DNA of 64,000 bases from Chitinophagaceae bacterium (GTDB taxonomy: Bacteria; Bacteroidota; Bacteroidia; Chitinophagales; Chitinophagaceae). The DNA is taken from the NCBI GenBank assembly GCA_024508725.1, contig JANINS010000003.1:186001-250000 (forward strand), in the 5' to 3' direction. Shown one piece after another: positions 18,662 to 20,952 of this stretch. Positions within the stretch are counted from its first letter, which is position 1, and each line of letters starts with the position of its first letter. The position numbers and the translations under genes were made by a program. The notes beneath the pieces were generated by a model, which worked only from the letters and a program-made list of their open reading frames with translations, was not told where the DNA came from and made no database searches.

Positions 18662-18688
18662 TCCCGCTTCTGCGGGATTTCATTTTTT
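18662..18688 (+). terminator. Terminator after the sigma-factor/lipoprotein operon
   Basis: Stem TCCCGC / GCGGGA with a TTCT-type loop, followed by T-rich TTTCATTTTTT. It lies between the lipoprotein stop and the stop of the convergent Ldh gene. Confidence 0.8.
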
Positions 18689-19769
18689 ATAGAAGCTTAA
18701 CTCCTAATTTATCTTCCAGTGTTTTAAGATCAGCAACAACAGCATCAATAACAGGTATTCCGTTGTTCATTCTTTCAGTTTCCATTTCTCTTTCGGGATC
18801 ACCAGGAATCAACACTTTATTTTGACCTGAAGCTGGTTTTGCATCTCTGAAACGTGATATCCAGTTGTCCATATGCTGTTTAAATTCTTCAGCCGGACGA
18901 AATGCATCCACTCTCATCGCTCCAAAGAAATGTCCAAGACCTTTACCCGGCATATTCTCAGGCATTGCGATATAAGCAGGAAACGGTGGTGCCCATGGTC
19001 CGTAGCTTCCACCACTTAATACTGCTGAGAAGATATCGACGATACTTCCTAATGCATAACCTTTATGACTTCCGTGATCTCTGTCACCACCCAAAGGCAA
19101 CATAGCACCTTGTTGTTTTAATGCGCTGGCATTGGTTGTTGCATTGCCATCTTTGTCCTGCACCCAACCTAGAGGAGCTTCTGCATTTTTTCTTTGAAGA
19201 ATCTCCAGTTTACCATTAGATGCTGTGGTAGTGGCAAAGTCTGCAACAAATGCAGGTTGTTCTTTCGCCGGAATAGCAACAGCGATGGGATTTGTTCCCA
19301 GCATTTTCTCAATCGAAAAAGTTGGAGCAACCAAAGCACTGGCATTGGTCATTGCAATACCGATCATATCATGATCTAAAGCCATCATTGCATGATAGCC
19401 GGCAATCCCAAAATGGTTACTATTTCCTACAGACACCCAACCTGTTCCAACGTTCTTCGCTTTATCAATGGCAATTTGCATTGCTTTTGGCGCAACGACT
19501 AAACCCAGGCCGACATCGCCATCAAGAGTAGCAGTCGAAGGTGTTTCATGAATGATTTGAATGTTTGGAATAGCATTAACTCTCTTAGCCTCCCACAGTC
19601 TTACATAACCTGTTAACCTTGCCACACCATGACTGTCTATACCACGAATATCAGCAGATACCAAAACTTTTGCTGCAGTATCTGCATCAGCTTCGCTGCA
19701 ACCTATCTTGAGAAATACTTGCTTGGAGAATTGGTATAACTGATCGTAAGAAAACAATTGCTGACTCAT
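18687..19769 (-). CDS. Ldh family NAD(P)-dependent oxidoreductase (malate/L-lactate dehydrogenase type)
   Basis: 360-aa member of the Ldh_2 family, which includes malate, L-lactate, ureidoglycolate and delta-1-piperideine-2-carboxylate reductases and is unrelated to classical LDH. Conserved blocks are 'ADIRGIDSHGVARL' near the N-terminus, 'VGNSNHFGIAGYHAM' (catalytic His region) and 'GDRDHGSHKGYAL' near the nucleotide site. Length fits the family. A minus-strand TACTTTTG -7-like box sits just before the ATG. It is single-gene; the neighbouring transposase is unrelated. Substrate cannot be chosen between family members. Confidence 0.9.
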   Translation of the reverse strand: MSQQLFSYDQLYQFSKQVFLKIGCSEADADTAAKVLVSADIRGIDSHGVARLTGYVRLWEAKRVNAIPNIQIIHETPSTATLDGDVGLGLVVAPKAMQIAIDKAKNVGTGWVSVGNSNHFGIAGYHAMMALDHDMIGIAMTNASALVAPTFSIEKMLGTNPIAVAIPAKEQPAFVADFATTTASNGKLEILQRKNAEAPLGWVQDKDGNATTNASALKQQGAMLPLGGDRDHGSHKGYALGSIVDIFSAVLSGGSYGPWAPPFPAYIAMPENMPGKGLGHFFGAMRVDAFRPAEEFKQHMDNWISRFRDAKPASGQNKVLIPGDPEREMETERMNNGIPVIDAVVADLKTLEDKLGVKLL

Positions 19770-19800
19770 GGTTGCAAAAGTAAGTGCTAAGCTGTTTCAG

Positions 19801-19821
19801 TCGCCAGCGTCTCGCTGGCGA
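19801..19821. repeat. REP-like palindrome, left outer
   Basis: Perfect 8-bp arms TCGCCAGC / GCTGGCGA with a 5-base loop (GTCTC). The same arms recur at 20455-20475 on the far side of the transposase. Confidence 0.82.
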
Positions 19822-19831
19822 CAATTATTTC

Positions 19832-19846
19832 GCAGCATCTTGCTGC
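19832..19846. repeat. REP-like palindrome, left inner
   Basis: Arms GCAGCA / TGCTGC around TCT, 10 bases inside the left outer palindrome. Confidence 0.65.
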
Positions 19847-19864
19847 ATAAATGCCCTTCAAAGT

Positions 19865-20371
19865 TTATAAAGACAGTACTTTAATAGGTGAGTTAGGATT
19901 AGCACTACTATACCTCCAATAATGTGGTTCTTCTACATATCCTGCTCTTACCGGATTCAAATGAATATATTCTAACTTTTGAAAAGCAACTTCGGTAGAA
20001 AAGCACTCAGTAGGATGATTATCCTGCTGCCAAAAATGATATTGGTCATAGCTTTTATTATATCGGGCGTGAAATCTAAACATGTGCAACAACCAGTCTT
20101 TCCTACTCTCAGTAGGGTTTTCTTCTATGACTTTAATGATCTGCTTGGCAGTATAACTCTTCAAATGCTGCATCACCTTTTGCAGGTTTCCATCAGATTG
20201 AGTAGCTAAAAGGTGAAAGTGATTGGTCATGATCACATAGCCATAAATCTCGAGCCCTTTTTCCTGTTGACAGAATTGTAAACTATCAACTAAGATATGA
20301 GTGTACTCTTCACGACTGAACACATCTATCCAACCTACCACTGCAGTTGACAGGAAGAATAAAGGCATCAT
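19865..20371 (-). CDS. REP-associated tyrosine transposase (RAYT), apparently 5'-frameshifted
   Basis: 168 aa, IS200/Y1-like HUH single-strand transposase of the RAYT type. The HUH motif is in 'YVIMTNHFHLLAT', and the typical C-terminal block is 'EYIHLNPVRAGYVEEPHYW'. The family cuts and rejoins single strands at REP palindromes and is usually not a free-moving insertion sequence. The readable frame starts at an internal ATGATG, but the other frame from the ATG at 20396 encodes MSELRKANYDAF. That joins well to FFLSTAVVGWIDVF if one base near 20360 is removed. The gene may therefore be a recent pseudogene, use the internal start, or carry an assembly error. Palindromes flank both sides. Confidence 0.87.
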   Translation of the reverse strand: MMPLFFLSTAVVGWIDVFSREEYTHILVDSLQFCQQEKGLEIYGYVIMTNHFHLLATQSDGNLQKVMQHLKSYTAKQIIKVIEENPTESRKDWLLHMFRFHARYNKSYDQYHFWQQDNHPTECFSTEVAFQKLEYIHLNPVRAGYVEEPHYWRYSSANPNSPIKVLSL

Positions 20372-20430
20372 AATTCGCCTTTCTTAGTTCACTCATAGAA
20401 CATTAAAATACAATCTTTATAAACTTTAAA

Positions 20431-20445
20431 CAAGCCAGAGGCTTG
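20431..20445. repeat. REP-like palindrome, right inner
   Basis: Arms CAAGCC / GGCTTG around AGA, mirroring the left inner palindrome in position. Confidence 0.62.
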
Positions 20446-20454
20446 AAAATACAA

Positions 20455-20475
20455 TCGCCAGCCGGAGGCTGGCGA
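20455..20475. repeat. REP-like palindrome, right outer
   Basis: Arms TCGCCAGC / GCTGGCGA around CGGAG; arms identical to those of the left outer palindrome, loop different. Confidence 0.82.
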
Positions 20476-20496
20476 TTGAAACATTTCATTCCATTA

Positions 20497-20952
20497 TTAA
20501 AACGGCAAATCATCCAAAGGCTCTGTAATATCAGCAGCAGCCGGAGTAGCTACCTGCTGATTATTATAAGAAGGTTGCTGATTGTATGATTGCTGTCCAC
20601 CATTGTTGTAAGAACCACCGTTATTTCCGCTGTCACTTCTTCCACCAACCAGTTGAACACTCAACACACGAAGACTTAAAGAAGCACCTTGTTTCCCATC
20701 CTGTGTTTGATATGTTCTTACATCAGGTGTGCCCTCAACATACACAGTTTGTCCTTTTTTCAGGTAAGGAGCAATACCTGTTCTTTCTGTCCAGTAAGCA
20801 CATTCCACCCAGGTAGTTTTATCTTTCTGTTGCCCTTGCGAGTCTTTATATCTTTCAGTGTGAGCAACACTGAAGTTGATCACATTTTTTCCGTTAACGT
20901 TGTTTACTACGCAATCCTTTCCCAGATTGCCAATCACCTGTAACTTGATCAT
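20497..20952 (-). CDS. ssb: Single-stranded DNA-binding protein
   Basis: 151 aa. The N-terminal OB fold (about residues 1-107) opens 'MIKLQVIGNLGKDC' and includes 'TTWVECAYW' and 'GQTVYVEGTPDVRTY'. A Gly/Asn/Gln-rich flexible linker follows. The acidic C-terminal tip 'PLDDLPF' is the docking site for repair and replication partners. The ATG at 20952 matches normal Ssb N-termini; the longer in-frame extension is unlikely. It is adjacent to the RAYT, which processes single-stranded DNA, but the proximity may be chance. Housekeeping or paralogous Ssb cannot be told apart from one window. Confidence 0.95.
   Translation of the reverse strand: MIKLQVIGNLGKDCVVNNVNGKNVINFSVAHTERYKDSQGQQKDKTTWVECAYWTERTGIAPYLKKGQTVYVEGTPDVRTYQTQDGKQGASLSLRVLSVQLVGGRSDSGNNGGSYNNGGQQSYNQQPSYNNQQVATPAAADITEPLDDLPF

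Follow-up and report, generated by a model that had tools for sequence, protein, structure and literature searches.

The TnpA-REP protein of Escherichia coli and the enzymes of IS200/IS605 elements use single-stranded DNA as their substrate, bind hairpins through irregularities of the stem and through the loop, and cut beside the foot of the stem. The E. coli REP stem carries a conserved mismatch bulge (PMC8266576). Two REPs in inverted orientation that form one long hairpin constitute a REPIN, and REP singlets have been interpreted as remnants of defunct REPINs (Bertels and Rainey, 2011, PMC3116915), a description also given in PMC8049555.

Among the matches listed in our literature search on RAYT, REP and REPIN in Bacteroidetes, TnpAREP and REPtron, only one paper treats the TnpA-REP subclass that is closest to the locus described here (Quentin et al., 2018, PMC6006769). 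This subclass, 2.6, corresponds to Bertels group 5 and occurs mostly in Bacteroidetes. Its members carry the motifs NH[LIV]H, WQ and YIH[QN]NP and an SS tail, with a median HuH-Y spacing of 82, and are flanked by GTAG-less 'atypical secondary structures' that have copies elsewhere in the genome and were found by manual inspection. Subclass 2.4 of the same study has a spacing of 88 and the motif NH[IFV]H, is described with GTAG REPs and has no tail domain. RAYT-like genes flanked by paired palindromes are also known as TIRYTs in TIRtrons (Di Nocera, 2013, PMC3733652); the genomes of Pseudomonas putida and P. fluorescens contain hundreds of copies of an arrangement in which a stem-loop without relation to the REP lies next to a degenerate GTAG-1 unit (PMC3733652).

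The locus examined here resides in the genome of a Chitinophagaceae bacterium (the source genome, 3.88 Mb), within a 64-kb window, by which we mean the whole stretch of DNA that was analysed. It is very probably a REPtron of a Bacteroidota type, in which a single-copy Y1/HuH RAYT gene lies between two outward-pointing copies of its own two-hairpin REP and the encoded RAYT would act in trans, and which is probably old and decaying in this organism.

Anatomy of the RAYT locus

The RAYT (TnpA-REP) gene occupies positions 19865..20371 of the minus strand and encodes 168 amino acids from an internal ATG, with the HuH motif NHFH and the Y motif YIHLNP located 85 aa apart. The original prediction of a RAYT accompanied by REP palindromes was right, as judged by NCBIfam, Pfam and a fold match to a REP-bound RAYT. 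Specifically, the protein scores 98.3 bits with REP_Tyr_transpos (NF047646, cut-off 80) and 27.3 with Y1_Tnp (PF01797, cut-off 23), and its AlphaFold model (mean pLDDT 95.7) has the REP-bound RAYT structure 4er8 as its rank 1 Foldseek match (TM 0.64, 16% identity). The characters expected of a RAYT are all present, namely the Y1/HuH fold, the NHFH and YIHLNP motifs, a low copy number and flanking repeats that are dispersed in the genome. The gene is the sole match to the RAYT protein found in the source genome; this single copy, together with a score of 21.3 bits with the IS200 model, below its cut-off of 55, does not agree with an identity as an IS200/IS605 transposase.

Three-frame translation in comparison with relatives places the start of the N-terminus typical of those relatives (MSELRKANYD...) at 20372..20396 of the minus strand, in another reading frame than the rest of the gene. 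Judged against relatives such as that at locus L086 (MSELRKANYDGLFF...), the reading frame of the gene is shifted by one base at about codons 11-13, unless the assembly contains an error; the internal ATG preserves most of the protein despite the frameshift. As the gene is frameshifted, present RAYT activity is doubtful. Early-ending RAYT frames are also found in relatives (94, 92, 53 and 27 aa at L090, L095, L097 and L098), and broken RAYT frames are therefore not unique to the source genome. A hairpin of the form AAAGGC...GCCTTT (20361-20382, minus strand) encloses the internal ATG-ATG at the frameshift site and might affect translation from the internal start.

Four palindromes surround the gene, at 19801-19821, 19832-19846, 20431-20445 and 20455-20475, precisely where the original prediction had located them, and the arms of the outer two (TCGCCAGC/GCTGGCGA) are identical while their loops differ, as it had also claimed. 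The outer stems are longer than these 8-base arms, with 10 bp at 19800-19822 and 12 bp at 20452-20478. The mirror-like layout is borne out and is larger than first described, because there are two additional 29-nt inverted repeats, each 86% complementary. One of them pairs 19793-19821 with 20455-20483 and spans the outer hairpins plus 7 nt beyond; these outermost 7 nt read TGTTTCA at 19793..19799 and TGAAACA at 20477..20483 on the plus strand. The other pairs 19857-19885, an arm that overlaps the 3' end of the RAYT gene, with 20402-20430 (both plus strand), and is located just inward of the inner hairpins.

The inner and outer palindromes prove to be the two halves of one repeated unit. The upstream REP unit (20428..20475, plus strand) consists of the small hairpin at 20431-20445, the conserved linker letters AATA at 20448-20451 and the large hairpin at 20455-20475. 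The downstream unit (19801..19849, minus strand) has its small hairpin at 19832-19846, AATA at 19826-19829 on the minus strand and its large hairpin at 19801-19821. Both units point outward. They score 68.6 bits (upstream) and 65.9 bits (downstream) with a covariance model, R1, that includes the two among its own 10 training sequences.

Random occurrence of the arms had been named beforehand as an observation that would speak against this arrangement, and it was not seen: with up to three mismatches the arm pattern matches twice in the window, whereas 100 dinucleotide shuffles averaged 0.07 matches and never reached two. There is no further copy of the arms within the 64 kb, as had been stated, and Rfam has no match anywhere in the window at gathering thresholds.

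Dispersed copies of the two-hairpin unit

A genome-wide search for the arms, which the original prediction had called for, gave a different picture outside the window. With up to two mismatches, the large-hairpin pattern occurs at 10 places in the source genome, two at the RAYT gene and eight elsewhere, and the reversed control at none. The earlier description of the locus as a self-contained unit thus holds within the window only, since eight more copies are dispersed through the genome. Each copy is a unit of approximately 48 nt composed of a small hairpin, an AAT[A/G] linker and a large hairpin. In all 10 units the small hairpin lies on one side of the large hairpin at an almost constant distance, and the letters AAT of the linker are invariant (AATA in nine, AATG in one). 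The apex AGC-N-NGA-N'-GCT, where N is complementary to N', is common to small and large hairpins. An A.C mismatch interrupts the large stem in seven of the eight dispersed units, whereas both gene-flanking units have G:C at this place. The sequence GT[AG]G is absent from the hairpin foot in all 10 aligned units, which are thus not canonical GTAG REPs.

In the alignment of these 10 units (A1), 96.7% of the pairs of the small hairpin are formed and three of its six pairs change on both sides. The search pattern did not include the small hairpin, whose pairing is therefore not an artefact of that pattern. For the entire structure, 93.3% of cells are paired and 16 cells are double-changed, 14 of them in the small hairpin, with a covariation score of 0.284 versus 0.058; paired fraction, total of double-changed cells and covariation score were each reached in none of 500 shuffles. 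Two of the five covariation measures are ordinary, namely four pairs changed on both sides (102 of 500 shuffles are as high) and eight further pair types (43 of 500). A search of the source genome with the covariance model, limited in scoring to the top 150 of 4384 candidates, placed the same 10 units on top, followed by a weak match at C1:220373 (30.9 bits) and several below 20 bits.

The eight dispersed units comprise six singles and one direct tandem (C4:219727-219839), and among the units found in the source genome there is no gene-less inverted pair (REPIN). In a scan of seven dispersed loci, six had no overlap with any ORF of at least 90 aa; the seventh (L003) overlaps an ORF of 141 aa, yet is situated between two long ORFs. 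The system in the source genome is probably old and decaying, since its ten units have diverged, none of them forms a gene-less inverted pair, and the gene is frameshifted close to its start. The description of singlets as REPIN remnants in PMC3116915 and PMC8049555, together with the frameshifted RAYT, gives it this appearance.

Empty sites, RAYT flanks and REPINs in related genomes

The RAYT locus is bordered by ssb (Pfam SSB; 20497..20943, minus strand) and by a gene for a Ldh_2-type malate/L-lactate dehydrogenase (18687..19769, minus strand), which form the two edges of an empty site in relatives. The dehydrogenase is present in 17 of 34 relatives, and in four of these 17 ssb adjoins it within the stretch examined. 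The gap between the genes is about 72 nt in a genome of the same genus (G001), 122 nt in G011 and 76 nt in G005, compared with 727 nt in the source genome. These short gaps leave no RAYT between the genes, and an empty site in close relatives, which the original prediction had proposed to look for, is therefore present in three genomes of the same family. In G004, 527 nt separate ssb from the dehydrogenase and no RAYT match was found on that contig. All three short gaps show a terminator-like hairpin after ssb, as recognized by eye, and in the source genome the upstream REP unit, which itself scans as a terminator, occupies that place. As the ssb-side hairpin is missing here, transcription of ssb may at present be terminated by the upstream unit, and we infer that the REP took over the role of the ssb terminator.

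For a wider comparison we used 80 named RAYT loci, the best 80 of 264 from one scan. Nearly all are labelled Bacteroidota (L159 is Bifidobacterium breve and L105 an 'uncultured bacterium'); the counts leave out 40 other RAYT loci of relatives, and L012-L040 were listed for hairpins only. Flanks that are mutually inverted beyond all 100 letter shuffles occur at 59 of 78 testable named loci (60 of 79 with the query; L100 and L159 were too short for the test), and with 100 shuffles per locus about one of the 79 may pass by chance. RAYT genes without palindromes in relatives had been named as evidence against the original prediction; the 59 loci are in its favour, and the 19 of 78 whose flanks have no significant mutual inversion stand against it.

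A layout similar to that of the query is present at many of these loci. Two-hairpin scores of at least 30 were obtained for 92 of 160 gene-adjacent flanks, including the two of the query, versus 25 of 597 stretches located 1.2-3 kb away at the same loci, a control rate at which about seven of 160 flank pairs may be spurious. The unit statistics are based on 91 units from 58 loci, one equal-sized pair having been dropped from the 92, and they count every locus as independent, with no correction for kinship, even where several belong to the same genome. Units were oriented by hairpin length alone after the rule that the outer hairpin is the large one had been abandoned, as it fails for a good share of flanks: 60 units point outward and 31 inward, with the larger hairpin not the outer, and some flanks contain more than one unit. 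The linker includes AATA or ATAG in 47 of the 91 units, compared with 14.3 in shuffled linkers (maximum 24) and 19 on the opposite strand, and lacks this motif in 44. The frequency of GT[AG]G, found in one linker against 2.6 in shuffles, is not above chance. Large stems carry an A.C mismatch in 45 units and the mirror C.A in eight, and are perfect in 29. Small and large hairpins have identical top three base pairs in 27 of 91 units, versus 6.5 on re-pairing (maximum 15). At L152, L157, L158 and L136 the GC-rich NGA apex is replaced by one of the AGTTNNNAACT type, with loops such as GCA, ACA and TTA; at the first three loci the small hairpin has it as well as the large one.

We suggest tentatively, with slightly more doubt than confidence, that the RAYTs of Bacteroidota recognize a distinct class of REP, characterized by a direct doublet of small and large hairpins, concerted lineage-wise change of the apex, an [A/T]ATA[A/G]-type linker that replaces GTAG, and a large stem interrupted by an A.C mismatch. 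If this is true, one enzyme would read both hairpins, and its recognition would be re-tuned through the concerted change of their apices. Among the 80 relatives, the HuH motif reads NH[VIL]H in 52, and 27 have no match to [ND]HxH (some are broken or have SHxH); the commonest Y motifs are YIHNNP (13) and YIHQNP (11). Residues S155-S156 of the SS tail are invariant in a structure alignment that combines the query with 45 of the 80 named loci (46 sequences).

The layout of the query locus is repeated in Pseudoflavitalea rhizosphaerae (Chitinophagaceae; locus L086, genome G003), where the RAYT gene is intact. Its RAYT is the best match to the query among 58 relatives, with 51% identity; in the named scan (best 80 of 264) Pontibacter arcticus ranks best with 56%, and P. 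rhizosphaerae has 52%. The large hairpin of P. rhizosphaerae matches at 186 forward and 208 reverse places in its genome, 394 in all, of which a few may be counted on both strands, and the control gave none. We examined 40 stretches, allowing up to four substitutions per hairpin, of which 27 had been picked as exact-match inverted pairs and 13 as apparent singles. An inverted pair is present in 36 of them (34 of 102 nt and two of 103 nt), comprising all 27 of the first class and nine of the 13 apparent singles. The order large-small-small-large is that of the four palindromes at the RAYT locus, without the gene, and as gene-less inverted REP pairs with constant spacing these elements are REPINs.

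When the model built from the source-genome units was applied to 35 genomes, it matched in three: the source genome itself, P. rhizosphaerae (at least 148 matches) and G047 (two). The other 32 gave no match among the best 150 candidates per genome; since scoring was confined to these candidates, the 148 matches are a minimum, and absence from the 32 genomes is less certain than it may seem. Of four Pontibacter genomes, three contain one Pontibacter pattern at 29, four and 22 places, and the fourth lacks it.

Approximately 10 nt on each side of the 102-bp REPIN core in P. rhizosphaerae (G059, L325-L363) vary among copies and are still partly complementary, with 7.8 of 12 outer flank positions complementary in 35 elements versus 6.5 when flanks are re-paired. 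Insertion of the REPINs into the loops of pre-existing hairpins was considered and dropped, because the flanks share semi-conserved sequence; their complementarity is for this reason better read as the element's own outer stem. No target-site duplication was apparent.

Interpretation of the locus and a second repeat

Judged by its motifs rather than by the profile of Quentin et al. (2018), the REPtron most likely belongs to subclass 2.6, or Bertels group 5. It shares with that subclass, as described in PMC6006769, the WQ motif, YIHxNP, the SS tail, a long HuH-Y spacing (85 versus a median of 82), and flanks that lack GT[AG]G and have copies elsewhere in the genome; it differs in having NHFH rather than NH[LIV]H and YIHLNP rather than YIH[QN]NP. 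Subclass 2.4 is near in two features, the spacing and NH[IFV]H, but differs by its GTAG REPs and the lack of a tail domain. The GTAG-less 'atypical' structures of this subclass have been published, while the explicit two-hairpin anatomy may be new: this anatomy, the shared apex, the linker and the mismatch are not given in the excerpts of the main text of PMC6006769. Given the Pseudomonas TIRs that combine a REP with a stem-loop in PMC3733652, we do not claim the two-hairpin anatomy as unpublished; in that precedent the second stem-loop is called unrelated to the REP, whereas here the apex is common to both hairpins. Unlike in the REPINs of PMC3116915, a single half of the present elements comprises two hairpins and lacks GTAG, and the search of the source genome yielded singlets and one direct tandem only. 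Relative to E. coli TnpA-REP bound to a GTAG REP (4er8), the fold is the same and a mismatch recurs (A.C in 45 of 91 units), but GT[AG]G is present in only one of 91 linkers and identity is 16%.

Short palindromes are frequent in any 64 kb, and the symmetry of the locus could in principle be a chance resemblance. This reading is scarcely credible and was rejected in view of the shuffles of the window (two matches versus 0.07 expected), the control search of the genome (10 versus none) and the covariation score, which none of the 500 shuffles reached. Ordinary transcription terminators around a stand-alone gene are a quite improbable explanation of the four palindromes. With their T-rich tails, the outer hairpins account for two of the four terminator-like sites in 19600-20700, where 1.1 are expected from shuffles, and the compact empty sites have a terminator-like hairpin after ssb (by eye) that is missing at the RAYT locus. 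However, the whole two-hairpin unit is dispersed in the genome with conserved linker letters and apex, and paired hairpins are concentrated next to the RAYT genes of relatives. The dispersed copies largely refute terminators as the sole explanation; a terminator role as a side-effect is possible.

It is also unlikely that the locus is a TIR transposon, TIRtron or IS-like, that moves as a unit with its gene and leaves its ends behind as solo units. Such an element would agree with the long inverted ends, the empty site in relatives and the single units elsewhere in the genome, but the source genome has one copy of the gene, gene-less pairs are abundant in P. rhizosphaerae, and the covarying stems mark the ends as hairpin units. 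Inspection of the ends by eye did not reveal the TIRYT consensus GGGGWSAS.

If the locus is a REPtron, its RAYT would bind the two-hairpin unit in single-stranded form by contacts to the apices of the hairpins and to the mismatched stem, and the small hairpin, which has the same apex, could serve as a second binding site for this protein. Cleavage would take place near the linker, at the position of GTAG in canonical REPs, a natural prediction given the conserved linker at this position and the recurring mismatch. The enzyme would then mobilize gene-less inverted pairs (REPINs) in trans. The two-hairpin unit makes it testable how a RAYT with GTAG-less repeats selects its cut site; it also provides the 'atypical' structures with a searchable anatomy and with a covariance model by which they were detected in two related genomes. 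The source genome, with a frameshifted gene and 10 diverged units, and P. rhizosphaerae, with an intact gene and 394 matches, form a natural contrast, of two genomes only, for asking whether repeats are amplified by RAYT activity.

A second dispersed repeat, with the core GTTGYGTCRCWCNCTTGTAC and a consensus of approximately 70 nt (30 copies profiled), has two main variants and is not an evident palindrome. With up to two mismatches it matches 193 + 178 places in the source genome and none in the reversed control. In the window it is located at about 14733 (plus strand), 21969 (minus) and 38101 (plus), and has no Rfam match there; a literature search found neither of two 19-letter forms. With one mismatch it is present in 12 of 35 genomes, including G005 (130), G011 (44), G008 (33) and G017 (30). 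Five of the seven dispersed REP loci (L003, L004, L005, L007 and L010) lie within about 120 nt of a copy of this repeat (up to three substitutions), compared with a background density of about one per 10 kb, and the two kinds of repeat may simply favour the same intergenic places.
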